Shown here in pieces: positions 22,408 through 54,781 of a stretch of 64,000 nucleotides of DNA (its first letter is position 1; every line of letters starts with the position of its first letter). The notes beneath the pieces are model-generated. The model worked only from the letters and a program-made list of their open reading frames with translations, searched no databases and was not told the DNA's origin. This DNA comes from Pegea sp. RAD2-039 (taxonomy: Eukaryota > Chordata > Thaliacea > Salpida > Salpidae). The DNA lies in NCBI GenBank assembly GCA_034620365.1, contig JAQGEQ010000351.1, forward strand, positions 124,001-188,000. The letters are read 5' to 3'. Both the position numbers and the translations under genes were made by a program.

Positions 22408-25400
22408 TCATTCCTGTTCCTTCAAATACTCTTCATGAGATTTCTTTCTTGCATCAAATAGTTTCTTCAACTTCTTGGTAAGTCCCTTACTGATCTCTTT
22501 TCCATCAACATCATGTGTAGGAAGACCCTTCGAACATAAACTCATATTTGATCTCAGATGATTTGATTAAATCACAAGATGTGTTTGAAGTTGATACTTA
22601 CTTGTTCATCAAATTTCGAGTACTTGTCAGTCATTTGAAGGAACATTTGTTGAGGGGGTTGACGTCTTTGTGCTTCTTTTTCTTGTTTTTTCTTTTCAGC
22701 TGCTTCTTTAGCAGCAATTTTTTTTAATCTTTTTTCCTCCTCAATCTGTAAAATGAGTAAATTTTCAATCTTCTGATATTAGATAAACTTCTCAGCTCTT
22801 CTCAACTAGCTTCCTCAATCTTACGCTCTTTCGGATGGGACTCATCTTCCTCAACACAAATGTTATCAACAAAAATATTTTTCAAATTTGATGACATTTG
22901 ATTTGATTTTGTATCTTACTGGGAGCGTTCACCAACAACAGCGGATGTCAGCGTGAAAATATTCTCTACTTTTTTGGGGATGTCTTTTGATCAAATCAAT
23001 TAAAATCAGGTTGATGTACTCTCCAAGCCCCAGTAAAGTATCTTAAGGAATCCAATAAATCCCTGGAGCACTTGATTTGAGGTTTTAGAGCCGCATTTAA
23101 GATCTGATCTTGGGAGACTTTACCTTCTTTTTCGCTTCCATTTCTTTCAGGAGTTGTTCTGGGTCCATAATCTTCACCACAGTTTTTGCTCCTTCCTTGT
23201 CTTCCAGACGAACTCCAAGATGAGGGAGGACCTCATCGCGAAGCTTATCGCATAGTTTCAAGATCGCGACATCTGTAAACAATCAAAAGGAGTTGAGATC
23301 AAATAGAGATCAGAAAGTTTGGATCACCTTTGCTTTCCAATCCAGCGTTGCGGATCTGTTCACGAAACGTCGAGAGCGCCTCTAAATAAGGCATCAAAGT
23401 AGCCTCTGTGTTTCCTCCGCTTATATTGACCGGAAAACCAATCACATCATCAGATTCGATGGTTCCAAACACCTAGCAACTAATCATAAGTGAAAAGAAC
23501 AACCAATCATAACCAACCTTCAACAACCAAGTCACATATTCAGCGATCTCCCGCAATAAGCAGGTATCGGGAGGGATCTGATCTGATGAAGATGAAAGGT
23601 AGTTGTTGACAGTTGAGACGAGCTGACGAATCTGGCTTAAAGCAGTTTTGGTGTCGATATTATCACAAAGCGCTTTATGAACATTTTGTTGCCTCATAAT
23701 GAACCTAAAATGAAAGATTTAGAAGATGAAGATCAGAAAGATTAGATCTCACTCTTCGGATAGTTTCATCTCTCTTGTGTCCCATTTTTGAAACTTATCA
23801 CTTCCTTGAGTCGATCGCTTTCGTATCGCGTCTTTTACAGTCAAAAAGAACTCCTGGGAGAAACCGGAAGATCAGAAGATGTTTTCAAATGATTTGTGGA
23901 TGATTACGTTGATGGACTTCTCGTATTGGACGGCATCTTGCATCGTGTTATCCGAATAGTCAAGTGTGTCTTTCCATGAATGAAGAAGGAACGCGAGACG
24001 CAGCTGACGCGATGTATTCTTCTTCAAGGCTTCCTGGTTACACAAATGATGACATGATGATGACGTAATGATGAAATCATACTTTGATTGTGATGAAGTT
24101 TTTGAGGGATTTCGACATTTTACATCCGGCAATTGTCAGATGTCCAGAATGGAGAAAAAACTTCACCCAAGAGTCATTATCGAAGAAAGCCTAAAACAAA
24201 TTCAACCATTTTCACATCCTCTTTTCGATGACGTCACTAACCTCTGATTGGGCGAGCTCGTTGTCATGGTGAGGGAATTTAAGGTCCACCCCTCCCGTGT
24301 GGATGTCCATTTCACTTCCTAGAATCGAACTAGCCATGGCCGAACACTCAATATGCCATCCTGGTCGACCCTATGACGTCATCACTGAAATTGAATGATG
24401 ACGTCACATCCCAACTACTGACCTTGCCCCAGGGCGAGTCCCAGGAAGGTTCTCCGGGTTTGGACGCTTTCCACAAAGCAAAGTCATTTGGAGATCTCTT
24501 TTCGTTGTCGGAAGAGACACTGAGCGATCCTGGGTAGAGCGGTTAAAAGACGCGGTTATGACGTCATAGAGGCACCTTCGCCTTCTTCCAGGGCTTTTCG
24601 GTCACCAACTGCTTCGGGGACCAGTTTGGCGTAGAAGTGGTTGCAGGTAGAATCAAATTTAGAAACCGCGAAGTAAACAGAGTTATTGGATTCATACGCA
24701 AAGCCGTTGTCGATGATTCGCGTCACAAACGCGACGATTTCCGGAACATATTCACTCACGCGTGTCAGGACAGTTGGTGGGAGGACCTGGATTAGATTTA
24801 GGGGTCAGATAAAGGTGGCTGAGATGAAGGACTGACATTTAAAGCTTCCATATCAGCAAAATATTCTTTTTCCCAGAATTGGGGCAGTGAGGTGAAAATG
24901 GAGTTGTCTTCAACAGTGCTTCCAAACTGAAATTATAAATTATTGAAATTGTGATCGGAAACACTGATTGAAAAAAGAACTTTTTTGTCAAGAAATAAAC
25001 AAAGAGCATCTTTGCAATCTTGCAATGTGTCTTCAATCGAATCTTTCGACATTTTTGGCTCGTTTTTCATCTTCTCAAGACTTGCTAAGGTCTTAAGATT
25101 CTGTTTTTCTAACATCTTCTTCTTGTCGAGATCAGTTGTTTCAGAAATCTTCTTTTGAAGAATCTGGAAAGGATTTATGAGTTGAATCAGTAAAATCAGT
25201 TCAAATCCAACCTGTTGAGCTAATTTGACATCATCAAATGACTTCTCTTGTTCTGCTTTCTTCAAGTAATTCTTGAACAAGTATTCCTGACGAGCTCGAA
25301 GAATGATCTTCAAAGATGAAAGAGTCAAGACGTGATCAAGATCAAAAGATCATCACCTTATCATCAATATCAGTGATGTTCATACAGAAGAGGATTTTGT

Positions 25401-36595: not shown

Positions 36596-37307
36596 ATGAA
36601 AATGTTAAGATTGAAAATCTTCAAAGAGTTGATTCCTCGTTCAACTTTCTATCAAAGATTTTCATCAGAACAACATCCAAAGTACATCATCTCAAAAGAA
36701 GACTTCAAATTTGTTAAAAGACTTTTACCTCCATCACAAATCCCAGATCCTCCAAAACGAGACTCTTATCCAACCCCGTCGGGATGGTGTCCTCCATCTG
36801 GTCAGCAACAACATTTCATGTTTGATTAAAAATGTTTAAAAATTAAAATTTCGAACTTTCTTAAACTTCTAGGTTTTCAATTTGCTAACTGATGACGTCA
36901 TCAACAATTGTTTGTTTTCATGAACGCAGAGCAACCACCAGATCGCTCTTATTACGTCACAAGGACTAAATATCATCTCTTTCCTGTTGATGAGATTGCT
37001 GAAGACTTCAAATTTGAAATCAAGCCAAAAATAGCTCACGATGACGTCATCAGCATTGATGAGCCTCAAATGCTAACAACAGTGAAAAATATAGAGGGCG
37101 ATATCGCGGTTAGTGACGTCATTACTTGCTTGTCACGTCATCACTAAAGATGACTCTTAGGAGCTTGTGGAAGATCTTCGGAAGATAGTGGCTCCTGTTT
37201 GCGAGTATGATCCCGCGATAAGCTTTGATGAATCAAATGGAATTGTTTACGTTAAAGGAAGCTACAGTGACGTCATCACGCGATTCCTTCGCGATTGTGG
37301 ATTTTAA
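36596..37307 (+). CDS. MRPL49: Mitochondrial large ribosomal subunit protein mL49
   Basis: Mitoribosome component, 176 aa. Exons: 36596-36800, 36930-37108, 37161-37307. The diagnostic block LPPSQIPDPPKRDSYPTPSG then WCPPSEQPPDRSYYVTRT matches the vertebrate LPPSQIPEPPKHEHYPTPSG. The conserved end NIEGDIAELVEDL...GIVYVKGSYSDVITRFLRDCGF also fits. An N-terminal presequence-like MKMLRLKIFKELIPRSTF precedes it; the second Met at 36602 is an alternative start. The 52-bp second intron carries two GACGTCA-type cores right after the donor. Confidence 0.92.
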
Positions 37308-37344
37308 TTTAACTTTATTTCGATTTTGTTATAAATTTGGATGA

Positions 37345-37350
37345 AATAAA
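37345..37350 (+). promoter_or_regulatory. Poly(A) signal of mL49
   Basis: AATAAA 38 bases after the stop codon. Confidence 0.6.
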
Positions 37351-37931
37351 ATTATTTGGAGAAATTTAGCTGGAAATAGTTTTTCAAAGTTTTGATTTTT
37401 TCTGTTTGGAAACACTTTATTATTCTCAATATCTTTGAATCTTGATAATATCACCAAATTGTTTCATGACATCTTTTACAAATATCAGATTTACTTAATA
37501 TGTTAGTGAGTTTCAACTATTTTACTGAAAAAAGACTTTTATTTGTATATCGAAGCAAGAGGTGATCTCCTGGAGATCGAGATATTTTTCTAAAACCAAC
37601 TAATCTTACTTCAGCTCAACATCTATCTTCATGTAATTCCAACTAACTAAGATGAGCTCAATGGAATTATGCTAAATTATAAGATGAAAATTATCTTTTT
37701 CACAACACCTTTTAACAATTCTTCGAATAATTTTTTTGGGAAAAACGTAAAAGAATAATTATCAGCTGCCAAGCAGCCTAGAAAGAATTTTTCTCCTGCT
37801 TGCCGCGAGAATTGTTGAGAAAAGTTGCCTCATAATTTTAATGATAATTTGCCTAATAATTCTACGAATGTTGCTTCTCTTTTAAATTATTTTTGATGTT
37901 GGATTACTTCATAAAATTTAAATCTTTAATA

Positions 37932-38040
37932 TTTATTTATTACAATAAATGCGAAGAAGGGTGCCTAAACAGAGCACCTCTCGCTAACACACATTCTCAC
38001 AAATAACATATATTAAGTTAGAAATATAAAAATATGTAAC
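37932..38040 (-). mobile_element. 3' end of a CR1/jockey-like LINE, minus strand
   Basis: Its reverse complement (ATATTTCTAACTTAATATAT, then AGGTGCTCTGTTTAGGCACC, then CGCATTTATTGTAATAAATA) matches the 3' end of the element at 28541-28653 across about 100 bases. It includes the hairpin-like GGTGCY...RGCACC and the TAATAAATAAAT tail. It is a 5'-truncated copy of the same family. Confidence 0.8.
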
Positions 38041-40982
38041 AAAGGGCATGTATACTATTTATATTAATTCCTCTTACTCTTGATTAAAGATAAGAATCAA
38101 AGAATAAAAGTCTAGATTTTCTAATCAGAAGTACTGAGTTGCAAAGTTGGCTGAAATTTAGAAGTGAAAAATTCATTGAAAGTTCGATGTGTTAAAAAGT
38201 CGAAAACTTTTTCATCCAACATATTACATATTCAAAATTGTTTTTTTTTTCATTCCTTGATAAAATTTCTTTAATAATTTGCGTAAAGAAACTATTCTGT
38301 AAAGTATACTGGTAAATTAATCCTGATTGCAATGGAAACAAACTGGTTACAGAGATAAAGAGTTTTAGGAACATGACTAGGAATAGGGTCATAGAAGAAA
38401 ATTAGGCGGATGATGAAGAAAACCCAAGGAACCATTTTGCTAGTTACGTTGGAATTGCTTTTGAAACTCCATTTTTGATATACATAGATCAACGGTTTTA
38501 ACTCTTTTGATTATTTTTTGTAGATAACTTAGATGTCTTAGACGCCTATATAATGTGTAAGACTTTATAAGATAGTATATAGTTTGCTACAACTTTTTTT
38601 AATGAAATCTAGAAGTAAATTTTGTGACACAGTTTTCTTGATGCATTTATAGATAAAAAAAATGAGCTGAAATAAGTAGCTTAATTTTATAAGCTTTGAC
38701 ATATCATAAAAAACATAAAGCACATCCATTTAAAAAACATAATAAAATGTTTTCTATATTAATGCTTTAAATACAAGTTAAAAAATTCAAATTTCTTACC
38801 AGTATCGAAGGTATTAGTAAATAGAAGAAATATATGGAGAAATATTCTACAAATTATAAGGTATATTTTTCATTAATTTTATCTTCAAAAAATAAAGTAA
38901 TTTGGATAACAATGATTCAAAACTTTTTAAGAATAGTCAAAATAATAGCAACAATAGTTCTATAAAGGAATGATTAAGCCTTAAAAACATGAATTTTGTT
39001 TTAGAAAAAATGTTTAGGCATTTAAATAACTTTTATTAATACACTCTTTCATGAAAAAACATGAAAATATTTCTTTTTTAAAAGTTTTTTTTTGTATTTA
39101 TTTTTTTCATGTTTTTTTAATGCTTGATTAAAACATAAAATGAATAGTTCAAAAGTGTTCTGTAGCTAACCTATTTCAATCATCATTAATAACATAGCAG
39201 CGTCTATTTTGATTTTAACTTTTTCTAAGCAATAATATAATAGTCTTAAATTATGTCTCTTTTTCTTAAATAAATAGTCTTGTAATAACTTATTTGTTTA
39301 AATTTATCTTTAGAAAATATATTTATAAATTTTACTTGATGTTTCTTTAAACCTGTTTTTAATTTTATGTTAATTATTTTTCTGTTAAAGAAGTCCATTT
39401 TTTATTTTGTTATTTATAATACTGGTAAGACGTTATTTTACACAAATTAGCATTAAAAAATAGTTTGAAATATTATAAAATTGTTATTTTTAATTAGAAT
39501 TTGTGATTTCATTTTTGTTATTTAGTAAATAAACATATTCAAAATATTTTTAATAGATGTAATCTCTTTAATAATTATTATCACATTTCTTAATTTATTT
39601 TAAAGATTTTAAACCTTAAATAACTTTAAAATAAAGTTTTATTATTTGTTTGTTTGTTTGTTTGTTCAAAATACATATTTTATTATAAATCTGATAAACT
39701 AAAATAATTAAGTTATGTTTATTTTAATATTCTATAAAAAATAAAATAACATTAATTAAAAGAAATAATATAAATTGTAAATCAAATTATAGATTTTATG
39801 TCAGTAGCTTTTATCATTGTTTTATTTATAAATTGAATTTACAACATGTTAATTATAGAATTACATTATATTGCATAGTTTTATATATAATATATATTTA
39901 ATAAATTATTTTAAAAATTATTGTAATGATTCAAACAACATATATAGATATCATAATTAATTAGTTTTTTGCTAATAAAGTATTCAGCCCTTTATATGCT
40001 TCTTGTTTTACTTCAATGTTTAAATGTGACTAATTATTAACTAAATTTTTTTCATTTAAAATAAATTATTTTCAAAATTTGTTCTATAAATTTTTTCAAT
40101 TGATTATATTTTGCTTTGTTTATAGTAGGGCTTGATGATATATCAAAAGTTGTTTAATTAACTTCCTTTATAACTCAATTAATCATTAGATAGATTATAA
40201 TTATTTTAGATAGAGTATTTTATACTTGTAAAAGGTTATAGTTTCATAAATTTATCCATAAATAAAATATTTTAGAAGTATATTGGTGAGTTCTATATTT
40301 GATATATATGATGAATATGTTGCATAAAATATTTTACTTTCTAGATGATAAATAGATAAATCTTTTATAGGATTGTTCTTAACTAGTTTTTTAAAGACTT
40401 TCTTTAGATACTTTTTATATCTTTTAAAATGATTCATTCAATAATTTACTTTTGATGTAAAATCGATTTAGTTGATTGTCAAAGCTAATTTATTGCTACT
40501 ATGAATTTCAGATCTAAATTTGAAATCTTCTAAACTGATTATTGTTATACTTCATAAAAGTTTATTGTTTTAAAACATTTCTAAAATAAGATAAATAAAT
40601 TATAAAGTTGAGATAAATTTGAACTTTTATAATTGATCAAATTAATAGATTTAAATATGATTCTTTTAGGTTACTTTTTAATTTTAATCTTTTCAAATGT
40701 TATAAAAATTGAACTTTTAAATAACATTTTTCGTTGAATTTTCTTTTTTCAACAATTTTTAGTAAATCTTTAAAAATAGAAAATTGATTTAAAGCGTTTA
40801 GTTAAAACCAGAAAGTTTAAATCTTTGACAATTGAGAACAACTGTTTTCTTGAAAATTTTTTAAATTAGGGAAATTTTAACAAAACTTCAGATTACTGAA
40901 AATGTTCAAAAATTTTTTTAGGTTAAAAAAAAATTGAAGTAAAATTTTTATTTCAATTTTTTAAAATAATTTTTCATTTTAA
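38041..40982. other. 2.9-kb AT-rich desert
   Basis: No recognisable gene and no GACGTCA core. It ends abruptly at the TBC1D10 start codon, where composition becomes GC-richer. Confidence 0.6.
39645..39666 (+). repeat. (TTTG)n microsatellite
   Basis: About five TTTG units in the AT-rich spacer. Confidence 0.75.
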
Positions 40983-42296
40983 ATGTCTGATGACGAAACT
41001 GGTTCAATTGTCAGCAGCTTCTTGGGTACTGACGTCACTGAATTCGTCACAGACCGCTATGGCTTTACTGGTGGCTCCCAATTCACCTCATCACAAAATA
41101 GTGACGTCACTGCTCAAAAAAATCGCGAACGCGAGATGAAGTGGCTCGAAATGTTCGCCTCGTGGCCAAAATGGGCTTCAAAAAACTTCTTAATGTTAAA
41201 AAAACGATGCAGAAAAGGAATTCCATCATCGCTTCGTGGTCGTGCGTGGCAATACCTCAGCGGAAGTAAATATGACCTCGATCTTCATCCAGGGACATAC
41301 CAGGAGCTTCTACAACAGTCCCTGCCTCCTCAAGTTAAGGATGACATCATTAAAGATCTTCATCGTCAATTTCCTTTCCATGAAATGTTCGCGCGGCAAG
41401 GGGGCACGGGACAACAAGATCTTTATGACGTATTACACGCGTATGCGGTTCACAAACCCAAGGATGGTTACTGTCAGGCCCAAGCACCAGTCGCAGCGGT
41501 TATTTTGATGCATATGCCGGCTGAGGAAGCATTTTGGTGTCTTGTCGCGGTAATGACGCGATACATCGATGGTTACTATAGTCCAGGACTTACAGCGGTC
41601 CAGATGGACTGCAATGTCCTTCAGGGTCTCTTTCGCAAAGTCAGCCCAGTTGGCTTCCGCCACTTGCGGCGCTGCTCTGTAGAACCGCTTTTGTACTGCC
41701 AGGAGTGGTTGATGTGTTTGTTCTCGCGTACGTTGCCATGGAGATCAGTGTTGCGTTTATGGGACATGTTCTTCTGTGAAGGGATTAAAGTAATCTTCAG
41801 ATGCAGTTTAGTGATCCTGAAACACCGGATTGGAAATTCGGTGCGATGTCGCGCGCTCAATGACATGTATGATACGCTACAAGCATTACGTCAGATCGAT
41901 ACTGAAGTCGTTCAGCCGGAACGAATCATTGTTGACGTCATTAACTTGAAACTAAGTGAAAGCGACATCGAGAAGGAATTTCGAGTCCAACAGCGCTCCA
42001 AGAAGCAACACGACCCCGATAGTGACGTCATCACTCGTTGCTATCGAACCAAACCAGCCAACAATATCCCTAAGTCTAGCCAACTCGCTGGTGACGTCAT
42101 TCAGCGCGCTGCTACGTCATCAATTGCTCAAAATTCCAGCAGAAATTCGAACAAAACAAAAAAACCATCTGTGACTTCATCATCTTCGTTACCAACCAAA
42201 TCGACGGTCGAGTTGAAGAAATACACTCCGCTTGGTGATGTAACGTCGACAGCGCCGATGACGTCATCTAGTGACGTCACAGGTATTACAAATTGA
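40983..42296 (+). CDS. TBC1D10: TBC-domain Rab GTPase-activating protein, TBC1D10 (EPI64) family, single exon
   Basis: Rab-GAP (TBC1D10/EPI64 members act on Rab27/Rab35-type GTPases), 437 aa with no intron. The N-terminus includes TDRYGFTGG and REREMKWLEMFASW. The TBC domain spans about residues 75-290: RCRKGIPSSLRGRAWQYLSG, arginine-finger block DLHRQFPFHEMF, glutamine-finger block GYCQAQAPVAAVILMHMP, and LPWRSVLRLWDMFFCEGIK. The C-terminal ~110 residues are Ser/Thr-rich and low in conservation, with repeated D-V-I and T-S-S encoded by TGACGTCA copies. About seven GACGTCA cores lie in the CDS. Vertebrate genes of this family are multi-exon, so intron loss is inferred. Confidence 0.92.
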   Translation: MSDDETGSIVSSFLGTDVTEFVTDRYGFTGGSQFTSSQNSDVTAQKNREREMKWLEMFASWPKWASKNFLMLKKRCRKGIPSSLRGRAWQYLSGSKYDLDLHPGTYQELLQQSLPPQVKDDIIKDLHRQFPFHEMFARQGGTGQQDLYDVLHAYAVHKPKDGYCQAQAPVAAVILMHMPAEEAFWCLVAVMTRYIDGYYSPGLTAVQMDCNVLQGLFRKVSPVGFRHLRRCSVEPLLYCQEWLMCLFSRTLPWRSVLRLWDMFFCEGIKVIFRCSLVILKHRIGNSVRCRALNDMYDTLQALRQIDTEVVQPERIIVDVINLKLSESDIEKEFRVQQRSKKQHDPDSDVITRCYRTKPANNIPKSSQLAGDVIQRAATSSIAQNSSRNSNKTKKPSVTSSSSLPTKSTVELKKYTPLGDVTSTAPMTSSSDVTGITN

Positions 42297-42659
42297 AGAA
42301 CTTTGTTCCTTTTTTTTGGTGTTTTCTGCAATTTTTTTCACTTTTTAATTTTTTTTTATGATTTTCTTCTGATTTAATTATTAAAGTTTTATGACGTCAT
42401 CATCAAATAGCGATGACGTCACTTTTGAACTTTTGCTGACATCATCTGCGTGTTTTCGTCATCAGCAACTCTTGTGATCTCATTTTGCTCAAATCGTGTT
42501 TTTACGCTGATGACGTCATCGCTGCCCATTCCATTTCTAATTACGTCATCACTTTTCTAGACAAATTTCGTTTTTCCCCCGTGACGTCACTAACCCCGCT
42601 TTTCGCTCATTTCAGGAATTTTTTTACTTTAAATAATTTTTTGTGATTGTGAAGTCATC
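42297..42659. other. Short spacer between TBC1D10 and TAF2, dense in TGACGTCA
   Basis: Holds four GACGTCA cores plus near-variants (TACGTCATCAC, GACATCATC) and an acceptor-like TTTCAG at about 42610. The two genes are head-to-tail only 363 bp apart, so promoter, terminator or trans-splice signals must all fit here. Confidence 0.6.
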
Positions 42660-45600
42660 ATGAAGAAAAGAATTGAAAAATACTACAAACTGATACATCA
42701 GAAGCTGTGTGTGACGTCATTAAACTTTGCGCGTCAGACCCTCATCGGTACCACAACCCTTCATCTGCGTGTCAATGCTGCAGGTGTGACGTCATCTGCG
42801 CTACGCGTCATCAAGTTAAACGCCAAACAACTGCGCATCTTGAAACTAACTGTTGATGACGTCATCGCCAACTTCCAGTATCACGATCCTGCTCTCGATC
42901 TCATGCAGCGATCGCCTCAATCACGTGACCTTCAGTCGCTTAATGCGCGACACCTAGCGGCCATTGAAGACGTTGATGCTGATTTGGGGCGTGGTGAAGT
43001 TACCATCGAGGTGCCCTTAAGCGTCATACAATCGATGACGTCATCAGAATATAAAAACGAACTGAAAATCGCGATTCAATTCGCGGTTGAGAAGCCACAA
43101 GGTGGAATTCACTTCGTTGTCAAGGGTAACGGCGATTTCGATGACGCGAATCACGTGTTCACGTCACTACGTCACAATCAAGCGCGCTTGTGGTTCCCGT
43201 GCATCGACACTTTTACTGAACCTTGTACCTGGTTTCTCGAACTCACTTGTGACGTCACCATGACAGCGGTAGCGAGCGGGGTGCTCGTTGAAACATTACT
43301 AAGCAACGATCGAAGTCGAAAGACGTTTCGTTACCAAGTAGCAACACCGACGTCAGCGCCAAACATCGGAATCGCGATTGGAAACTTTGAGATTTTAATG
43401 GATCCCAAGATGCACGAGATCACACACTTCTGTCTCCCGCGTCTCAAACCGCTTTTACGTCATACTACGTCATCACTTCACGTCATCATCGGCTTCTACG
43501 AAGAGCTACTTGGATTTCGGTTCCCTTTCGCTTCTTACAAACAAGTGTTTGTTGATGAGAGTGATGACGTCACAACCGCTTTCAGCGCGCTTGCAATCTT
43601 CGACACGAAGCTTCTTCACAGCGAAGTGATTCTCGATCAGAATCCTGAAACGCGCAAACACATGTCTTACGTCATCACTACACAACTCTTTGGATGCTTC
43701 ATGTCACGTGCTTCGTGGAATGATGCGTGGGTGACGTATGGGATCGCGCGATACTTGTATGGTTTGTGGTTAAAGCATACATTCGGTAGCAACGAATATC
43801 GCGCTTGGATACGCGATCAAATGGATGAATTGTGTGGTTACGAGCTTGACACCGGCCCCTTGTTGCTACGTTATCATGCCAACTCAATGACGTCGTCACC
43901 AAAACGCTGTTTCGCGCATCAGAATCCACTTACAATACCAGATCATCATCTTGACATGGTCATCACCAAATCCCATCTTCTTCTCAGAAGAATCGAAAAC
44001 CGCATCGGTCGTCATCTACTACTTCAAGCCATCAACAAACTGTTGTCATTAGCTACCGCTGTCATCAACCAGAAGATGACGAAAGCAGTGACGTCATCGA
44101 TGCTTCTCACCACCGCTGGATTCATCAAGTCGATTTTTACTGTCTCCGGAAAAGACCTCACGCCAGTGATTGACGATTGGTTGGGGTCTGGGGGCGTCGT
44201 CTGTTTCGAAAGTTCTTTCATTTTCAACCGGAAACGAAACGCAGTCGAATTGTCCCTGACCCAACAATTAGTCCGTGACGGTGTGGTCCGTTATGTTGGT
44301 CCACTCACTGTACGACTACAGGAGCTGGACGGGACCTTTAATCACGTGATACAAATCGAACATGATAATCGTAAACATGACATCCCGTGTCATTCAAAAA
44401 GTCGCCGGAATAAAAAGAAGAAAATCCCGCTGTTGAACGGCGATGAAGCCGATATCGATCTCAGTGCGATGGATCAGGACTCACCTGTGATGTGGTTACG
44501 AATCGATCCTGACCTTAACATTGTGCGTCGTGTACGTCATCAACAGCCCGACTTCATGTGGCAATATCAAGCCAAATACGAACGTGACGTCATAGGCCAA
44601 CTTGAAGCGATCGAGGCATTACGTCAGTACACAGCGCAAAGTACAAGCGTCGCGCTGATTGACGTCATCGAAAACGAGAAATTCTACTATAAAGTCCGCA
44701 CGGCAGCATGTGACTGTCTACGTCACGTGTTTAGTGACGTCATCAGCAATTGGACAGGCGCGCGAAAGATGATTGATATTTTTACTCACTTTTTCTGCTG
44801 CGCCACCAAGCGGCCAATAATCACTCTTAACAACTTCTCTAATTTCCGTCACTACTTCCTGCAGCGCGCGTTGCTGACGTCAATGTCGTTGCTACGCGAC
44901 AGCCAGGGGACTCCCCCGCCAGATATTGTTCGTTTTGTGCTTGACGTCATCAAATTAAATGATAATTCGCGTAATCGATACGCAGACAACTACTATCGCG
45001 CCACGTTGGTCACGTGCCTCACTAATATGGTCACGCCTGCTGTTACCTTGACAACCGAGCGACCATTTACTGCCGACGAACTGTCACGTGACGTCAGAGC
45101 GATTGTCGACGAAGTGACGCGATTTTTAAACATCGAAAAGCATTTGCCGTCGTATCGCTGCACCGTCACTGTGACGTCATTACACGCTATCCGAAAGTTG
45201 CAAAGATGTGGACATCTTCCTCCGAATGCAGAGATTTTTAAAAGCTACGCGCGACCAGGATTTATTGATGACGTCAGAATCGCGGCTCTTCAATGTCTTG
45301 TCGATCTACTCAAAACAACTTGTGACGTCATGTTGCTCATGTGGCTACTTGCGCACGTCACTGATGACGTCATGCCGACTGTGCGCGTAGGTGTCCTGCG
45401 CGCGCTCATTGACAATCCACCGTTTGTATATCGCAATGATGACGTCATCAAGTCGAAGTTAAACACGTCAGCACTGGTCGATGAGTTGTGGCGATTAATC
45501 AGCACAGCGACATGCCATGACGCGAAAGCGCGATGCGAAGCGATTCGTCTTTATCACAAACTCTTTGGGAAATCACGACCTTTGTGTCTTCCCACCGCGC

Positions 45601-46160
45601 ACATGACGTCATCATCATTCGTTGTAAATCTGAAGAAGAATGGAAAAAGTGACGTCATTACACCAATGATGACGTCACCACCGCATCAACGAAAACGTCA
45701 TCGCTCTCCAACGTCACCCATAGAAGCCAATGACGTCATTAACACTAACAACGGAATTCGAATGAAGATCAAACTTCCAGCGTCATCGATGACGTCATCA
45801 ACGTCCTCAGCAAAAACTATTAACACTGATGACGTCATCGCCGCTGAAAGTCTTCTTTCATTGGCTAAGAACACGGATGTGATGACGTCATCACGTCCAG
45901 CAACGCCCGGTCGAAATTTTACGTCAGAAACGGAACAGATGATGATGACGTCATCAACGTCTTTGTATAAAGAAAAGAAGAAGAAACGAAAACATCACAA
46001 GCATCTACGTCATCATCATCATCGTCATCACCATGGGAAGCATCACAAGTCGATGATGACGTCATCATCCAAACATCATCGCTTCACTGATGACGACATC
46101 GTTACGTCATCACCAGCTACACCTTCTACAGACTCGCCTAATTTTGCGCCATCACCGTGA
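42660..46160 (+). CDS. TAF2: Transcription initiation factor TFIID subunit 2, single exon
   Basis: Core-promoter (initiator)-contacting TFIID subunit with an M1-aminopeptidase-like fold that lacks the zinc HEXXH site. 1166 aa in one uninterrupted exon; human TAF2 is about 1199 aa and multi-exon. Landmarks: YYKLIHQKLCVTSLNFARQT at the N-terminus, RLWFPCIDTFTEPCTWFLEL, MHEITHFCLPRLKPLLRHTT, FNRKRNAVELSL, the family signature HDIPCHSKSRRNKKKKIPL, SPVMWLRIDPDLNIVRRV, then HEAT-like helices and a disordered His/Lys-rich tail (KEKKKKRKHHKHLRHHHHRH). The coding sequence is saturated with TGACGTCA, read as D-V-I, M-T-S-S or V-T-S, often at positions where relatives have chemically similar residues. 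No frameshift was seen. Confidence 0.96.
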   Translation: MKKRIEKYYKLIHQKLCVTSLNFARQTLIGTTTLHLRVNAAGVTSSALRVIKLNAKQLRILKLTVDDVIANFQYHDPALDLMQRSPQSRDLQSLNARHLAAIEDVDADLGRGEVTIEVPLSVIQSMTSSEYKNELKIAIQFAVEKPQGGIHFVVKGNGDFDDANHVFTSLRHNQARLWFPCIDTFTEPCTWFLELTCDVTMTAVASGVLVETLLSNDRSRKTFRYQVATPTSAPNIGIAIGNFEILMDPKMHEITHFCLPRLKPLLRHTTSSLHVIIGFYEELLGFRFPFASYKQVFVDESDDVTTAFSALAIFDTKLLHSEVILDQNPETRKHMSYVITTQLFGCFMSRASWNDAWVTYGIARYLYGLWLKHTFGSNEYRAWIRDQMDELCGYELDTGPLLLRYHANSMTSSPKRCFAHQNPLTIPDHHLDMVITKSHLLLRRIENRIGRHLLLQAINKLLSLATAVINQKMTKAVTSSMLLTTAGFIKSIFTVSGKDLTPVIDDWLGSGGVVCFESSFIFNRKRNAVELSLTQQLVRDGVVRYVGPLTVRLQELDGTFNHVIQIEHDNRKHDIPCHSKSRRNKKKKIPLLNGDEADIDLSAMDQDSPVMWLRIDPDLNIVRRVRHQQPDFMWQYQAKYERDVIGQLEAIEALRQYTAQSTSVALIDVIENEKFYYKVRTAACDCLRHVFSDVISNWTGARKMIDIFTHFFCCATKRPIITLNNFSNFRHYFLQRALLTSMSLLRDSQGTPPPDIVRFVLDVIKLNDNSRNRYADNYYRATLVTCLTNMVTPAVTLTTERPFTADELSRDVRAIVDEVTRFLNIEKHLPSYRCTVTVTSLHAIRKLQRCGHLPPNAEIFKSYARPGFIDDVRIAALQCLVDLLKTTCDVMLLMWLLAHVTDDVMPTVRVGVLRALIDNPPFVYRNDDVIKSKLNTSALVDELWRLISTATCHDAKARCEAIRLYHKLFGKSRPLCLPTAHMTSSSFVVNLKKNGKSDVITPMMTSPPHQRKRHRSPTSPIEANDVINTNNGIRMKIKLPASSMTSSTSSAKTINTDDVIAAESLLSLAKNTDVMTSSRPATPGRNFTSETEQMMMTSSTSLYKEKKKKRKHHKHLRHHHHRHHHGKHHKSMMTSSSKHHRFTDDDIVTSSPATPSTDSPNFAPSP

Positions 46161-46333
46161 CGTCATTGACGCTATATTATATTATGACGTCATCGTGTAC
46201 ATATCATCTTTTTTTCATTTCTTATTTTATTTTTTATAGTTTTTTTTTTTGAGGAAAATTTGTTTTTTAAACTCGTTCATGCGAAGCGAGAGTTTGACGT
46301 CATCAGCAGCAGCATCATTGCATGTGTGACGTC

Positions 46334-47247
46334 ATGATGAGTAAAAGTGAGTCCTGATAACACATCTACTAATGACGTCACGATAACTTGATCTTCAGAT
46401 GAACAAAGGATCTCAAGACATGAAATCCTTCACCGGATGCGAGACTTTGATCTTGATATTCTTTCTCGCGTTCAGTTACGCGCTGGCGGCTTTCATGAGA
46501 TCGGTGACGTGATCAAATGCGTCAACATTGTCCACTTAGATTTGTCACTGAACCAATTACAAAGTGCTGACGTCATCAGCGCGCTGCAACTTCTCGAAGT
46601 GGTCGATCTCCATGGCAACCAACTCACTAACATCGGTAAGTGATGACGTCATCGCTGTTTGATTAATTACAGTTTTGTGATAGACGTAATGACGTCACTA
46701 CCGCGATTACGCGATCTGAACGTGTCAGGAAATCTGCTCAATGACGTCACTAGTCTCAAAGAAGTGATGACGTTGCGAAAGTTGGTGCTGCGTTCCGATG
46801 ACGACCATCTCACTAATCCCATCTGCTTGTCTGGGAAATACCCGCGTGACGTCATCGCCCTGCTACCGCAAGTGTCTGATTTTGACGGTGAGATCTATTG
46901 ACGTCATCAAACCCTTTTTAGTGACCTATTTTTAGGGATCCGAGTCAGAGGGGTAGGTTCACAATTTCATCTTCTTTGCTGTCACGTGATCGACCAAATC
47001 GAAGCACAAAGCCGAGCGGCTCGTGAGTAATTGTCGATGACGTCATTGGTTTGATTATGACGTTGCTCGAATAACATTTTCAGAAAATTTGATAAAAGAT
47101 GAAACGACGACGTCATCAAGTCGATTGGATAGTTTAATGACGTCATACAGTAAGCAGGATGATCGATTTGGATCGGTTGCTATGGCAACAAAACGTTTTG
47201 AAGAAGTGTTGAAGGAGAGTCGAGTTTTATGTCAGCAAAAATTCTGA
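46334..47247 (+). CDS. LRRC61: Leucine-rich repeat-containing protein 61
   Basis: Small LRR protein of poorly defined function; 249 aa. Exons: 46334-46346, 46399-46635, 46684-46887, 46936-47022, 47084-47247. LRR turns are visible: CVNIVHLDLSLNQLQ, LLEVVDLHGNQLTNI, LPRLRDLNVSGNLLNDV. An LRR-cap-like end (NPICLSGKYPRDVIALLPQV then SDFDGIRVRGVGSQFHLLC) matches the vertebrate NPLCANP...LLPGLKVIDGERVIGRGSEFYQLC. It starts 174 bp after the TAF2 stop on the same strand. The 13-nt first coding exon was chosen because it supplies an in-frame ATG, and is less certain. Introns are 48-61 bp and each carries a GACGTCA-type core. Confidence 0.85.
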
Positions 47248-48315
47248 ATGATTATTTGGAAACACTATTACTTGTTTTGAAATCTTTCAGCGTTTCTATT
47301 TGAATTTTAATAAATTTAAAATTTTAATTAAAATCCTTTTTTAGAAATTTTTTTAAATTTTAGAATTCGAATTTCGATGACTAAATTATAAAGATTTTGT
47401 TTCAATATTTTTATTTAAATTTAATAAAAACATTAAAAAAATAGAAACTGAATTTTATAAAAGAAATATTCAAAAATGAAATTAAAAATTTTAGGAATTA
47501 AATTAGCATCAAAAATATGATAAAAGATTTCCGAAAATTAAATTTATCAAAATTTTAAATAATTTTAAAAGAAATCTTCAAAAAAATTTGTTGCAAAAAT
47601 AAATATTTAAAAAGTTTGTGATTTTATCCAATTTATCTGAAGTGCAATTAGTTGTGAAAATGTAAATGTTTCAGTAAACTTATTTTGGCAGAAAGATAAA
47701 AACTTTCAAAATAATTATTTTCTCAAAATAAATGTCTGACATTTTTTAGGCTGAATATAAAAAGTAGGAAATTTTGGAGAAATTTTTTTTTGTCATCAAA
47801 TTTCAGTTAATTGAGATTTTTATCTGAAGTGAATGGTAAATTTCTCATCAACTTACAATCTCTAAAATCATTAAATTTAATCATTATATATTTCATCAAA
47901 TAATTCTGTAATTATCAACTTTCTCTGAAACTTTTTTTCAATTTTTAACAAAACAACAAAATTTAACTAAAAGAGCTTTTGAGAGCTGAACAAAAGGTTT
48001 CTTGAGATTTTCATTTTCCAAAGAATTTATTCTGAGAATTTATCTGCAACATAAAATTTGCTTATATGATTTGTGGTCAAATATGAGATGTTATCACTAA
48101 AAGCAGAACAATTTTTAAAGAATTTTTTTTCTAATTATTTTATTACATGATTTGTAAAAATTAAATATTTCAAAAATTTTGTTAATTTCTACTTAAACAA
48201 TCAAAATTTGCAATTTAAAAGCTTCACATTTATTTTTTTGCTAAAAGTGACTTTAACTTTTAAAAGTGAACAAAAATCAAGTTTTATTTTAGTATATAAT
48301 ATTATAAAAAATAAG
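47248..48315. other. AT-rich spacer upstream of the tRNA cluster
   Basis: No gene seen. GACGTCA disappears immediately after the LRRC61 stop. The last ~150 bases are part of a duplicated tRNA-Glu segment. Confidence 0.55.
48170..48315 (-). repeat. Duplicated 3' flank of tRNA-Glu, copy A
   Basis: Read on the minus strand, this flank (for example AAAGTCACTTTTAGCAAAAA, then AATTGCAAATTTTGATTGTT, then AAGTAGAAATTAACAAAATT) matches the plus-strand sequence at 62176-62310 with small indels. Together with the adjoining tRNA gene, this makes an inverted dispersed duplication of about 210 bp. Confidence 0.85.
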
Positions 48316-48387
48316 TTCCTACACCGGGAATCGAACCCGGGCCGCCTGGGTGAAAGCCAGGAATCCTAACCACTAGACCATATAGGA
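48316..48387 (-). tRNA. tRNA-Glu (UUC)
   Basis: 72 bases on the minus strand. TCCTATATGGTCTAGTGGTT start, anticodon loop CTTTCAC (TTC), T-arm CCCGGGTTCGATTCCCGG, acceptor TCCTATA/TGTAGGA. Identical to the plus-strand copy at 62104. Confidence 0.96.
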
Positions 48388-48879
48388 TTTGCTCAAATTT
48401 TATATCATTATAATATGTTGAAACATCTTTTAGATTTATATATTTAAAAAAATGAAAATCTACGAGCTTTTATAGCTGATATCTGCACAAAAATGATCAA
48501 GGTAATCTAAAAATTAGTATTTTACAAAGATATTTTATGATTAAAAGCTAGAATTAAGCATAGAGCTACAACAGAAAGTTCAATGAACTGTTTCAGAAAT
48601 ATTGTTGAAACTTTTGTTTGATTAAGTTGTCGATAAGCAAAGAAGTGAGTTGTTTTGAAGCAATATTTGCCAATTTTGTTTTTATTTCTCCATCGGAAAT
48701 TTTTTCTTAATTTAGTTTTTTGAGTGAATCTACAAAATTATTTTTTTACAAACATAAACTAAAGATTTTGGCGGATAAATATTTTTAAAAAGTTTACAGA
48801 AAAAATTAATTTTACTGTTTCTTAATAAATTTGACAAAAGTTGTTTTTATTAATTTCTCTGGACAAAAAATTCAAAAAC

Positions 48880-48963
48880 TCCTTCGAGCCGGATTCGAAC
48901 CAGCGACCTATGGATTTCAACGTACTCTACAGTCCACCGCTCTACCAACTGAGCTATCGAAGG
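48880..48963 (-). tRNA. tRNA-Tyr (GUA) with a short intron
   Basis: 84 bases on the minus strand. CCTTCGATAGCTCAGTTGGT start, acceptor CCTTCGA/TCGAAGG, T-arm GCTGGTTCGAATCCGGC. The anticodon region is GGACTGTAG followed by about 11 extra bases (AGTACGTTGAA) before TCCATAGG, at the canonical 37/38 position expected for eukaryotic tRNA-Tyr. Confidence 0.95.
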
Positions 48964-49491
48964 CGACGTCGCTGATATATTTTTTTAAATTTAATTTTTA
49001 ACTTGTTCGAAATAGTTTGTGTAAGCTTATTCGGATAAGTTTTTTTATAAAATTTTTAAAAAGCTTCTTTTGGTCTGCAAGAATGGAGAAATATTTTTTT
49101 TATGCAAAAATAAATTCATAAAATATAATTTTTTAAACAAAAAACCATTTTACTGCTGTTAAAGCTACTTTATTGAAATAAACTCAAACATTCTATTTTA
49201 ATACTATACATTTAAATGCCAATTTTTTGCCGATTCAACTATAAAAAAACACATATTAGGGTAATTTCAACGATACTAAAAACTTAATCGAATTTAAATG
49301 AAAATGGCAAACATATAAACTTATATATATAAAAGTACCTTACTTATATGAACTTATAACATTAAGTAAGTTTGAAGTTGAATTTGTGGCGAACACAAAC
49401 TCTGTGAATTTATCTTTTAAAGTAAAATACTTAAAATTATTTTTTCCGATGTTTAATCTCACAGTAATAAACTGTAAAAGTATTAAAGAAC

Positions 49492-49563
49492 TTCCTACAC
49501 CGGGAATCGAACCCGGGCCGCCTGGGTGAAAGCCGGGAATCCTAACAACTAGACCATATAAGA
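49492..49563 (-). pseudogene. tRNA-Glu (UUC)-like copy, probably decayed
   Basis: Same length and overall sequence as the tRNA-Glu at 48316. Substitutions: TCCTATA to TCTTATA in the acceptor (tolerable G-T), GTGGTTAGG to GTTGTTAGG in the D-arm, and CCTGG to CCCGG in the anticodon stem, which makes a C-A mismatch. It may be a young pseudogene or a weak isodecoder. Confidence 0.7.
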
Positions 49564-49773
49564 GGTTGACTCAAATTTTTATTTAAATTTTATTTTTGTA
49601 TAACAAATTGCGTTTTGCAAATAAAACTGAAGTTTTTTATTTTCTCTGTTTTTCTTTAAGTTTTCAAGATATTTGAAGAAACTTTTAAGTTAATTTCCAC
49701 AAATGTTTTGCCTGATTTTATTTGACACGGATTTCAGTAAAACACTAAACTTAAAAATCAACTTTTACATATT

Positions 49774-51856
49774 TTATTTGCGAAATTCAAAGAATCCAAT
49801 CTTCTTAAGATCTTCTTTCATCTTTTGGAGCTGATCTTTAGATGCAGATTTTAGCGGTAATCTTGGTGGACCACATTTTAATCCAGTAACCATTTCCATA
49901 ATCGACTTATTAACACCAACATTAAAACCTGCGCCAATTTAGTCGTTTTACAAAATACTCGAACAATTTTACAAAATACATAAAAAGCCTGAAATCACCA
50001 TGACGAAGAAAGACATCAATAAAACGTTGAGATTGTTGCTGACAAAGAGATGCTGTCTTCATATCACCTTCCTTTACTGCTTCATACATTCGCGAGTAAA
50101 TCTTCCCTGCGTAGTTGTAAGTCCCTCCAACAGCGGTTGTTGCTCCTAGCAATAAAGCCCCTACAAGTTGCTGGGAAAAAATTGAAATAATTTTAGCGAC
50201 TTTTTTGGCTTTTTTCACCTCATCCCTGCCGTAGGCCATTGTTAGATTTCGACCAAATTTGTCGTTGAGTAAGCAACGACCAAAATCCAGCAAATTGTAA
50301 TCAGTGAATTTGACTCCACTAAAAGTTGGGACTTTCATAACCGATTTTTCCACAATTTCAGTTATTGGAACTAAAAAAAGGAAAATTTAGTTTCCAAAAA
50401 ATAAATTTTCGGCAAATAAACGTTGCAGATTTGTCATGTCAGGAAAATGATAATATAGAAGAGGAAGTCTCGGAGCTGCTGCTGAGACTTCGTTCAAATA
50501 ATCGATCAAATCATCCACAGATGACGGTTTAAAGAATATCGGAGGAAGAACTCCAATTGCATCCGCTCCAGCATCTTCAGCGTGTCTCGCCTTCAAAGAT
50601 AAATTTATTGTCAACCCGATTCTGAGACTTGACTGTCACCAGCTCCTTGGTGTCCCAGAGTGATACTGATCCGACTTGAGCGATGATCTTTTGCAGCCTG
50701 AAACATACTTTTGGGACTTTAGGAGTCTTGAAGAGGTTTTTACCTATTTTTTCCGCATTTGATCCATTTTTCAAGAAGCATCTTTCTTTCAGAAGTTGTC
50801 AGACTCAAACCCTCGCCGTTAGTTCCGTTCACTGAAAAATAAAGATCAGATAAAGATCAGATAAAGATCAGATAAAGATCAGATAAAGATCAGATAAAGA
50901 TCAGATAAAGATCAGATTAAGATCAGATAAAGATCAGATAAAGATCAGATAAAGATCAGATAAAGATCAGATAAAGATCAGATAAAGATCAGATAAAGAT
51001 CAGATAAAGATCAGATAAAGATCAGATAAAGATCAGATAAAGATCAGATAAAGATCAGATAAAGATCAGATAAAGATCAGATAAAGATCAGATAAAGATC
51101 AGATAAAGATCAGATAAAGATCAGATAAAGATCAGATAAAGATCAGATAAAGATCAGATAAAGATCAGATAAAGATCAGATAAAGATCAGATAAAGATCA
51201 GATAAAGATCAGATAAAGATCAGATAAAGATCAGATAAAGATCAGATAAAGATCAGATAAAGATCAGATAAAGATCAGATAAAGATCAGATAAAGATCAG
51301 ATAAAGATCAGATAAAGATCAGATAAAGATCAGATAAAGATCAGATAAAGATCAGATAAAGATCAGATAAAGATCAGATAAAGATCAGATAAAGATCAGA
51401 TAAAGATCAGATAAAGATCAGATAAAGATCAGATAAAGATCAGATAAAGATCAGATAAAGATCAGATAAAGATCAGATAAAGATCAGATAAAGATCAGAT
51501 AAAGATCAGATAAAGATCAGATAAAGATCAGTTGGGAATGTTGGAAGATTGGGATCAGAAATTAAAGATCAAAAGAAGACTTAATGATGAAGATCAGAAG
51601 ATGAAAAACAAAAAATTAAAGTTAGAAGGAGATTACGATTTAGTTGCTAGGGCAACATTCGTACCATACACGTGATAAATGGACTGCTTTACCAAAACGT
51701 CCACATACTCATCGATGACGTCATAATTGACTTCACTAAAAAATAGTTTCAAAATATTCAAATGAATCATAATTTGGGCTATCTTAAATCTCACCCATTT
51801 TCGTGCATCGGCGTTACAGGCGCCGCTATCAACCCAGTAACCTCACAACTTTTCAT
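49774..51856 (-). CDS. NPL: N-acetylneuraminate (sialic acid) lyase
   Basis: Class I aldolase of the DapA/NanA family that cleaves N-acetylneuraminate to N-acetylmannosamine and pyruvate. 308 aa. Exons: 51856-51795, 51735-51665, 50831-50744, 50697-50640, 50590-50422, 50370-50219, 50170-49999, 49928-49774. Motifs: GLIAAPVTPMHENGEVN at the start, substrate carboxylate loop NGTNGEGLSL, LLYYHFPDMTN with the Tyr, Schiff-base Lys in FSGVKFTD, and MVTGLKCGPPRLPL near the end, all matching human NPL. Most introns are 41-58 bp. Intron 2 (50832-51664) is inflated by an 11-bp satellite. Confidence 0.94.
50841..51532. repeat. 11-bp minisatellite in NPL intron 2
   Basis: About 63 head-to-tail copies of AGATCAGATAA, almost perfectly homogeneous; one variant unit (AGATCAGATTA) near 50910. 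Flanking sequence contains looser GATCAG words (51540-51600) from which the array may have grown. Confidence 0.97.
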
Positions 51857-52411: not shown

Positions 52412-54781
52412 TTAATGTCGTTTTTCGGACGAAAAATTTTGCGGAATTTCTGAAAAAATGGATTGTGGGTCGAACCAGGTGCTGATGACATGACAAACCT
52501 CTTGACAGCTGTTTCCTGACGCTGTGACGTAAGCATAGATGATGTATGCAGGAATAATTGCCATTGAAGATAAAGTTATGGCCCAGCCAAGCCCAGTAGA
52601 CCAGGACACGAATTTATGGTCCCCGTATTCAAGTGGCGGTGGACTAACGAAACTGATGACTATCATCATCTGAAAATATTCAATTTAGTGAGGTGATGAC
52701 GTCATAAACGCGATACAAACTATTAGAAAGATTGGTGAGATAAAGCACCAGGCTGCTTTCCAGTAGATGCCAGGTGAAAACCCTAACATGGTTTTGATGT
52801 CATCGCAAAGTCGGTTGAGACCTGCGGACCACATTTATGATATCAATGACCACATTTATGACACAAGCAGTATACTTACCATAGACCCAGGTGAGTGCGA
52901 TGGCTTCGACCAGGACTACAGTCATGATAGCTGGACCAGTGGCGTAGATCTCTAACAAAGATAGGAAATACATCCCACCTTGGGTTGTGGTCGAAAGTGC
53001 CCCAAGAAAAGAGACCGTCAAAAGCAAAAGGACAAACAGTTCACGATGTTGGCCCACACGGACCGGGAACTCGTCACAAAACGCAGTGATGACTGCTTCC
53101 AGGCCACCAAACTGAAATGGAACAATCAGTGGACAGTTAGTGGTTGCTAGGTACCTGGTTACCGAGCTGTCCAGTCCCAAAGTGATTAACATACTGAAGA
53201 AAATAATTGAGAAGATGGAAGAGCCTCCAAATTTGGTCATCGCCTGCCCATAGACCACAAACAGCAGTCCTGGACCTGGACCAGACAACTGACAGCGTCA
53301 GTGGAACAGTATGACGTCATCACCTTGCTTGGCAACGTCCTTTACTTTCACTTTCATTTGGTGAGCCATGTAGCCAAGAACAGAGAAGACCACAAAACCT
53401 GCCAGGAAGCTTGTCAAGCAGTTAACCACGCTAGTGATGATCGCGTCTCTGTGACGTCATCAGTGAGCAAAAATCAGTGATGATGAAAAGATAACCACCG
53501 ATAGCAGTTGTTATTGAATTGGTTGTAACTGGACAGGGCGATAAGGGTCCCGAATCCTGGTCCCAGTGAGAAGAAGACCTGCGTGGCTGCATCAAACCAA
53601 ACTGAAGTTTTTTGAATTTGAGTCCAGTTTGGAGTCAAATAGAACCGGATCCCTTCTCCAGCGCCCACTAGTGTGCAGCCACGGACCAATAGCACCATTA
53701 ACACCACATATGGAAATGTGGCAGTGACCCAAACCACCTGGTACGTGACCAGTGAATGGTCAAGACAAAATGACGTCACTACAAACCTTCCCAGACGATC
53801 GGACGCCTTTCCACAGCGTAAAATAGAGCATGACGTAGACAAGGGCCAGACAAAGGACCAGAGGCCATCTAGGACTACCCAGACCGTCCAACCCGCTCGA
53901 TTTGTAAAGCTCGAGAACTTTTCGTCTGTAAAATACTGATGCTCATTACTCATGCAGTCACTAGGTGGCGCTAGCGCACTCAAAGAACTGTTGCGCTGGC
54001 AACTGGGTTTCCATGTCAACCGTTACATTATGTGTCGCGTTGTCCAAAGGATTCCAACAGCGGTGGTCGGCCCACTCAGCGCCGCATGTTGCCCAGGGAA
54101 GTTTCCATGTCAATGAGCTGCAAGTGAAGTCATCAGCTTGTAAACGCGTTTGCTGATGACGTCATCACCTGTAGAGGTAGTAGAGGCTCCAAGCGATGAT
54201 AGTGTTGTAATAAAAGCTGACGTAGAGCGCCATTAAACAGATTGCAAAGCCCACACCTAAAATCACTAATGACATCACAAGCGATGACATCACACACAAT
54301 TACGTCACCTTTGAACATCGGACAAATCTTTTTCCAGATCGAGATGCAGCCGCTTCGATGAAATTGACCAATCAGAAGCTCCAAATAGAACATAGGAACT
54401 CCACCTAACAGAACCATCACCAAATAAGGTAAAAGAAACGCGCCTGTAGAAATGATGATGTCATTATCAATTGGGTAATCAAGGTTTGAGGGTACCTCCT
54501 CCATTTTTAAAGCAGATGTAGGGAAACCTCCAGACGTTGCCCAGGTCCACTGCAAATCCAATCACTGAAAGCAGAAATTCCAATTTTCGGCCCCATTGTT
54601 CGCGATCTGGGGTTATGATGTCACTGTCGACTTCTGACGTCATTGCTACGTCCTTATTGTCTGGGATCTACAATCATGGACACTTTTGTGACGTTTGAGA
54701 AGTAATGACGTCACTTACGAGTGATGTTTTGTAGCTGGAACTGTCGGTAGTCAAGATACTTTCTTTTCGGGAATTCCCCAT
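52412..54781 (-). CDS. Sodium-dependent monoamine neurotransmitter transporter (SLC6, SERT/DAT-type)
   Basis: Plasma-membrane Na+/Cl- symporter with the 12-TM LeuT fold, 600 aa. Exons: 54781-54719, 54667-54496, 54443-54309, 54256-54169, 54117-53980, 53925-53787, 53737-53499, 53448-53324, 53275-53163, 53111-52880, 52821-52721, 52669-52412. TM1 reads [20 protein letters not shown]; its Asp marks the monoamine branch, since amino-acid transporters have Gly there. Other blocks: [30 protein letters not shown] (TM3 Tyr), an extracellular loop with Cys pair and N-D-N-A-T-type glycosylation sites, [40 protein letters not shown], and [20 protein letters not shown] (TM8). TM8 S-F-G-G-L-E resembles SERT more than DAT, but the subtype is not settled. 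Several introns begin with or contain TGACGTCA. Confidence 0.95.

Follow-up and report, generated by a model that had tools for sequence, protein, structure and literature searches.

Why one 8-bp palindrome should recur through the genes of an animal is the question raised by a 64,000-nucleotide stretch of the salp Pegea sp. RAD2-039 (contig JAQGEQ010000351.1, positions 124,001 to 188,000; hereafter the window). The palindrome, TGACGTCA, is the canonical cyclic AMP response element (CRE) of CREB/ATF factors. An earlier reading made from the letters of the window alone (the sequence-only reading) had described it as dispersed through exons, introns and spacers, and the positions of the sites show this scatter. 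The analysis reported here shows that its excess extends across the genome, acts at the level of DNA and reaches protein sequence.

Abundance in the window and across the genome

The window holds 94 copies of TGACGTCA (~1 per 680 bp), 51 of which lie inside 40,983–47,200, against a chance level of 0.58, 0.63 and 1.0 copies under Markov models of order 0, 1 and 2, respectively. A count against a model of order 5–6 had been proposed in the sequence-only reading. Trained on the window, models of order 3 to 6 return 9.8, 45, 78 and 92 expected copies because a 64-kb model of such order has absorbed the motif's own words; the proposed comparison is thus uninformative on the window alone, and the excess is seen at orders 0–2. 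With two tandem arrays masked, the 96 palindromes of composition 2A2C2G2T were compared, and TGACGTCA contributes 94 copies whereas the remaining 95 contribute 58 combined. The second commonest palindrome of this composition, TCACGTGA, occurs 7 times. Among the 64 CpG-centred palindromes, the 63 others share 43 copies.

Genome-wide occurrence was assessed with TGATGACGTCATCA, a 14-mer containing the motif. It is present in 1,972 copies in the 105,744,746-base genome, compared with an expectation of 0.37 (order 1) or 0.93 (order 2) when the window models are scaled up, and the reversed string, included as a backward control, has 0 copies. For TGACGTCA itself the order-2 expectation over the genome is ~1,900. 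The first 50 of the 1,972 copies of TGATGACGTCATCA, all from contig C1, are clustered: chance predicts 1.25 gaps of ≤2 kb among the 49, and 14 are observed. Dense clusters therefore also exist outside the window. With 6 copies of TGATGACGTCATCA, about fivefold the genome mean, the window is a rich one. A density confined to this single window is excluded by the 14-mer count, and on that basis the excess of TGACGTCA is a genome-wide phenomenon.

Sites in coding sequence, short introns and spacers

The sites are densest in a compact block comprising TBC1D10, TAF2 and a leucine-rich repeat (LRR) gene (Table 1), in which the two open reading frames (ORFs) of TBC1D10 and TAF2 carry 35 copies in 4,815 bp, including a copy at 46158–46165 that is opened by the TAF2 stop codon TGA (46158–46160), and the other 1,403 bp carry 16. 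The two spacers of the block have 8 copies in 598 bp. The sequence-only reading had estimated ~28 GACGTCA cores in TAF2, roughly one every 120 bp, in good agreement with the 27 exact copies found (~1 per 130 bp). No copy is present in the ~3.7 kb ahead of the first site of the block (37,300–41,029) or after it (47,147–51,715). The observed/expected CpG ratio (o/e) of the block (1.33 with motif CpGs masked) exceeds that of the remainder of the window (0.86), and intact TGACGTCA outnumbers its CpG-decay product TGATGTCA by 51:2 in the block and by 43:15 outside it (Fisher p 0.0012). Inside such a CpG-rich block, TGACGTCA is protected or renewed. Outside the block, 24 copies fall in 16.8 kb of bins with ≥35% GC and 19 in 37.5 kb of poorer bins, so that the sequence-only description of a motif saturating one class of genes is broadly correct: the sites follow GC-richer DNA, but bins of <35% GC still hold those 19.

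Two tests conditioned on the encoded protein place the signal in the DNA. Synonymous-codon shuffling of TAF2 gave a mean of 3.2 and a maximum of 9 copies of TGACGTCA in 1,000 shuffles, far fewer than are observed, and shuffling of TBC1D10 gave a mean of 0.81 and a maximum of 4 against 7 observed. In TAF2, 15 of 17 Asp-Val pairs are spelled GACGTC and 19 of 23 Thr-Ser pairs are spelled ACGTCA; overall codon use in the gene is GAC for 40 of 74 Asp and GTC for 39 of 78 Val. The protein itself is also shifted. The best named homologs of the TBC1D10 and TAF2 frames are those of the tunicates Clavelina, Halocynthia, Styela, Phallusia and Ciona (46–53% in alignments), and a close relative (P0001, P0121; probably from a single contig, the longest contig being given as 8,638 bases for both) matches the two frames at 92–95%. 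TAF2 contains DV 17, TS 23, MTS 8, TSS 12 and DVI 9 times here and 20, 23, 7, 12 and 11 times in P0121, compared with 3–8, 4–11, 0, 0–1 and 0–2 times, respectively, in eight other TAF2 proteins (four named tunicates and four records at 52–53%). The codon-conditioned excess and the shifted DV, TS and MTS counts therefore place the pressure on the DNA itself, with the result that the encoded protein has changed. The enrichment in protein appears, in this ten-TAF2 comparison, to be limited to the present species and P0121. The genome-wide, DNA-level character proposed in the sequence-only reading is thus supported by the 14-mer count, the synonymous shuffles and the analysis of the block.

Comparison with the relative and with distant homologs also bears on how sites originate. 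At the seven TBC1D10 sites, DV or TS is also kept in the relative (by eye). At residue 337, where TTACGTCA codes Tyr-Val in the window, the relative's TAF2 reads DV, as it does at residues 121–122, and two TAF2 half-sites outside full motifs encode TS in the window and TP in the relative; turnover of sites between close species is likely from these alignments. One alternative is that the motif spreads by insertion, as a very short palindromic element or through slippage in TGA/TCA flanks that adds sequence in threes. Such spread would account for the tendency of the flanks to TGA/TCA triplets and for lineage-specific insertions that coincide with sites, as at DDVI (TAF2 residues 927–930), which is coded by GATGACGTCATC and is wholly gapped in 7 of 8 distant TAF2 proteins and partly in the eighth, and at an MTSS insertion (983–985). 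When placement was tested, insertions coincided with only 5 of the 27 TAF2 sites, where 2.2 would be expected (P 0.06), and with 2 of 18 against 0.48 (P 0.08) for residues ≤975. A purely insertional origin was downgraded on this test. As most TAF2 sites align ungapped to other residues, substitution is probably the main route of origin and spread by insertion is improbable as the general explanation; the insertions may have been added by slippage of the flanking TGA/TCA triplets. A protein search with the 62,882–63,322 frame, intended to extend the retention comparison to a faster protein, returned no match at E 0.001, and none of the relative's DNA was found in the viral contigs scanned.

Outside the block, the motif lies mainly in short introns. 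The sequence-only reading had called it frequent in a series of named genes, of which TBC1D10 has 7 copies, TAF2 27, the SLC6 span examined 6, the span of a CARS1-like gene 4 and one exon of NRDE2 1. For NPL the description is not confirmed, as the NPL-like ORF at 49,925–50,386 has none. SLC6 was identified by Pfam and PDB and the CARS1-like gene by eye; gene names beyond TBC1D10, TAF2, SLC6, NRDE2 and the NPL-like domain are those of the sequence-only reading or are by-eye assignments. All 4 copies in the CARS1-like span examined are intronic, as are 5 of the 6 in the SLC6 span, the other being at the likely start codon. The 20 introns of these two genes (40–74 bp) contain 9 copies in 1,021 bp, whereas the remaining 2,972 bp of the spans contain only the start-codon copy (intron borders by eye, with one doubtful SLC6 intron counted as exon); conserved exons are therefore mostly without the motif and free sequence is filled. 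Exact copies occur in 8 of the 20 introns, and three more carry TTACGTCA, TGACATCA, or TGATGTCA together with TGACGTAA. In the two intervals concerned (23705–25356 and 52450–54495), 19 of 20 introns measure 40–58 bp and one 74 bp (by eye). Because 6 of the 9 intronic copies stand 4–9 bases past the donor, and because self-complementary copies could pair, a role in RNA was considered, in splicing or in pairing between copies of one transcript in genes with short introns. This is very unlikely, given that 12 of 20 short introns have no exact copy and that density is equal in the spacers (which are possibly transcribed) and in the intronless TAF2 frame.

Within ~1.1 kb ahead of the likely SLC6 start there are four further copies (54706, 55458, 55720 and 55762), which runs counter to a strict gene-body rule. 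They favour a reading in which nothing new is present and the copies are ordinary CREB/ATF regulatory sites in DNA of high CpG content, as do the identity of the 8-mer with the CRE and the CpG richness of the block, and its rating was accordingly raised from negligible to slightly above that. It is nonetheless a remote prospect. The 63 other CpG-centred palindromes are scarce, with 43 copies between them, the excess in TAF2 and TBC1D10 persists when codons are taken into account, and, unlike CREs confined to promoters and enhancers, the sites run through coding sequence, introns and spacers, with 34 inside the two ORFs. Most copies do not appear to serve promoters: the 3.7 kb ahead of the block is free of them, although SLC6 has its four upstream copies.

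Table 1 Features of the window that bear TGACGTCA or related words
Feature	Positions	Strand	Sites and basis
Site-saturated, CpG-rich block TBC1D10–TAF2–LRR gene	40983..47200	+	51 TGACGTCA; CpG o/e 1.42; GC 0.46
TBC1D10-like single ORF, 437 aa	40983..42296	+	7 TGACGTCA, 6 coding DV and 1 coding MTS; Pfam RabGAP-TBC, homologs, phases
TBC1D10/TAF2 spacer	42297..42659	+	4 TGACGTCA: 42392, 42414, 42511, 42582
TAF2 single ORF, 1166 aa from first Met used	42660..46160	+	27 TGACGTCA; Pfam TAF2 domains, homologs
Spacer downstream of TAF2	46161..46395	+	4 TGACGTCA: 46185, 46295, 46327, 46373
LRR-type ORFs (LRRC61 in the sequence-only reading)	46392..46901	+	TGACGTCA at 46568, 46644, 46690, 46742, 46847, 46899
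CARS1-like intron, 51 bp	24191..24241	-	One TGACGTCA; borders by eye
CARS1-like intron, 52 bp	24371..24422	-	Two TGACGTCA; borders by eye
CARS1-like intron, 46 bp	24530..24575	-	One TGACGTCA; borders by eye
SLC6 intron, 40 bp	52670..52709	-	One TGACGTCA; borders by eye
SLC6 intron, 48 bp	53276..53323	-	TGACGTCA 4 bases off donor; borders by eye
SLC6 intron, 50 bp	53449..53498	-	TGACGTCA at acceptor; borders by eye
SLC6 intron, 49 bp	53738..53786	-	One TGACGTCA; borders by eye
SLC6 intron, 51 bp	54118..54168	-	TGATGACGTCATCA; borders by eye
SLC6 intron, 52 bp	54257..54308	-	TGACGTAA and two TGATGTCA (decayed or variant copies)
TGACGTCA across likely SLC6 ATG start codon	54635..54642	-	Start inferred by eye

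Within the LRR-type ORFs of Table 1, the copies at 46644 and 46899 apparently lie in short introns (by eye). A Clavelina TAF2 record (P0125) bears LRR Pfam domains, which suggests that the TAF2–LRR neighbourhood is old. The CARS1-like gene (23755–25500) is a patchwork of CpG-rich, motif-bearing stretches beside CpG-poor, motif-free ones. In a further locus, L003, which has a CpG o/e of 0.59, an Ig-domain-like frame (by eye; 539–1804 of that locus) holds two copies of TGACGTCA, one of them coding DDVI. Three repeat arrays were observed in the window. A 19-bp minisatellite in a Kelch-type gene (612–2294; 89 copies, 92% match) has two middle 500-bp bins without CpG and three frames open for at least 567 codons, and is probably an intron array (by eye). 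An 11-bp tandem array of ATAAAGATCAG lies near the NPL-like ORF (50839–51531; 63 copies, 99% match). A short degenerate array of ~31-bp units (56440–56620) has TGATGACGTCAC in one unit and ATTACGTCAC or ATTACATCAC in others, where a TGACGTCA-type site seems to be arising or decaying within the repeat.

Flanks, variants and a candidate reader

A purine (R) tends to precede TGACGTCA and a pyrimidine (Y) to follow it, with TGA and TCA halves beyond (TGA-R-TGACGTCA-Y-TCA tendencies), and within the block each flank is the mirror image of the other, although the ORFs there share one orientation; the flanks are thus dyad-symmetric. The half-sites are enriched at CRE spacing and not at AP-1 spacing, as TGACTCA on either strand occurs 7 times in the whole window against ~11.5 expected. 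Mirrored flanks and CRE-only spacing therefore fit a dimer on DNA that reads the CRE spacing. The core is identical to the CRE, and the R...Y and TGA/TCA flanks shown by the counts resemble what we take to be the in-vitro optima of basic leucine zipper (bZIP) factors, with GATGACGTCATC presumably matching those of JDP2, BATF3 and ATF-type proteins. C/EBP-like words are not enriched in the window relative to order 2. Sites of other factors were rejected as the real signal (TTGCGCAA 0 vs 0.9 and TGATGCAA 2 vs 2.5 at order 2), none coming close; mildly raised words are TTTCGCGC (4 vs 1.5), CCGGAAG (4 vs 1.3) and TCACGTGA (7 vs 1.2).

Copies that differ from TGACGTCA at one base bear on the analogy with the highly iterated palindrome HIP1 of cyanobacteria, which the sequence-only reading had offered. 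The 65 one-off copies differ at the first or last base in 7 cases, at the second or seventh in 23, at the third or sixth in 5 and at the centre in 30 (order-2 expectations of 3.1, 6.3, 3.0 and 9.9, respectively). The commonest variants are TGATGTCA (17 vs 3.8), TTACGTCA (15 vs 2.2–2.3) and TGAAGTCA (10 vs 4.4), followed by TCACGTCA (6 vs 1.8) and CGACGTCA (4 vs 0.7), with 0–3 for each of the other seven. To our knowledge, no sequence-specific DNA methylase of the kind that a HIP1-like process would use is present in animals. In such a process, methylation at or near the palindrome would steer the mismatch repair that makes and keeps it. The methylated centre should then decay to TGATGTCA, which is nearly missing where the sites are densest (2 vs 51). 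In appearance, HIP1 and the alternate HIPs (GCGATCGC; PMC4390886, available text) are the nearest analogue: one palindrome is hugely over-represented across the genome (here 94 vs ~1 in the window, and 1,972 vs <1 for the 14-mer), is dispersed through coding and noncoding DNA, and recurs at intervals of roughly a kilobase. The palindromic form and central CpG of TGACGTCA, its ~680-bp mean interval and its spread through coding and noncoding sequence suit the model given in that source, which takes this form and names roughly one copy per 1,000. By the same source, one-off copies of HIP1 deviate mostly at the two end bases, whereas here the deviations peak at base two (TTACGTCA) and in the central CpG (TGATGTCA); the host is an animal, the sequence is another one and the sites are concentrated in genic CpG-rich blocks. 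A HIP1-style mechanism is unsupported so far and is considered unlikely.

The reading that is tentatively favoured, from the sequence features above, is that TGACGTCA is a gene-body site for a CRE-type bZIP dimer, weakly selected in many copies, that keeps genic chromatin open. A dimeric protein of this type (ATF/CREB/JDP2-like) would read the site in gene bodies genome-wide, and many weakly selected sites would together hold genic chromatin open and preserve its CpGs from decay. Copies would gather in whatever sequence is free and overflow into the codons of less constrained proteins, and thousands of them could be maintained if the population were so large that even very weak selection is effective. 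The protein reader, its bZIP nature and the chromatin role of weakly selected copies are the parts that we infer. Several observations weigh against this reading. A density of ~1 site per 130 bp in a conserved coding gene, with amino-acid change, exceeds usual regulatory need. CACGTG, a second palindrome with an ACGT core, is likewise in excess (20 vs 4.8, order 2), which a CRE-only reader leaves unexplained, and neither a helical nor a 3-bp spacing period was seen among the 139 site pairs within 300 bp. A perfect palindrome cannot by itself separate action on DNA from action on RNA. In favour of the reading, TAF2 differs between the window and P0121 at 0 of 54 residues coded wholly by the motif, 3 of 42 coded partly and 53 of 1,070 others; this protein-level retention is no more than suggestive when taken alone, as 2.7 changes are expected and the chance of none is ~0.06.

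Biased fixation without benefit is a close rival of selection for bZIP binding. Gene conversion or repair at a bound palindrome would over-transmit sites, for example if the site suppresses breaks and the site-bearing copy acts as donor, giving a sequence-level drive that rewrites codons in genic DNA. The indifference of the sites to exon, intron and spacer, the amino-acid replacements created in TAF2 and the absence of sites from the 3.7 kb ahead of the block all accord with it. Against it, a break-initiating motif should erase itself, so that the drive requires the opposite sign, and we know of no precedent for a drive that favours its site. Fission yeast provides evidence on both sides. In the available text of PMC9775316, Atf1-Pcr1 binds the CRE-like ATGACGT, which is a meiotic hotspot, but does not bind the TGACGTCA of the ade6 frame, which gives no boost to recombination. 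Biased fixation is regarded as possible, if less than probable. About as doubtful is a self-spreading palindrome, of which conversion or repair at the protein-bound site would fix copies in genic DNA, overriding synonymous choice, altering proteins such as TAF2 and turning over between close species.

Known systems and biological meaning

We know of no highly iterated palindrome previously described in an animal. No title or abstract start among the matches listed in the open-access literature describes TGACGTCA in the genome of a tunicate or any other animal; in their available parts, a Ciona paper (PMC11001920) contains the sequence once and PMC13326754 does not contain it. Two further systems share some features with TGACGTCA. 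The M26/CRE hotspot of fission yeast likewise has a CRE-like site in a coding frame, where, in the available text, the bZIP dimer that binds it remodels chromatin and starts recombination (PMC9775316). That hotspot was created at a single locus, without saturation of the genome, and the full CRE in ade6 is described there as unbound and not recombinogenic. In Caenorhabditis elegans, periodic An/Tn clusters (PATCs) are a gene-associated pattern that prevents germline silencing and thus a model for a possible role of TGACGTCA; as described in the available text of PMC7725773, they consist of noncoding periodic An/Tn runs and not of an 8-bp palindrome in coding sequence.

Hyper-iterated palindromes such as HIP1 have so far been a bacterial puzzle, which PMC4390886, in its available text, models without offering proof. 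An animal example, which brings introns, alleles, tissues and a candidate bZIP reader, would allow selection for occupancy to be tested against biased conversion, and a self-spreading palindrome, if true, would be a natural case of site-directed molecular drive. The DNA-level pressure on TGACGTCA is strong enough to alter a conserved protein, which bears on the interpretation of protein divergence in fast-evolving tunicates.

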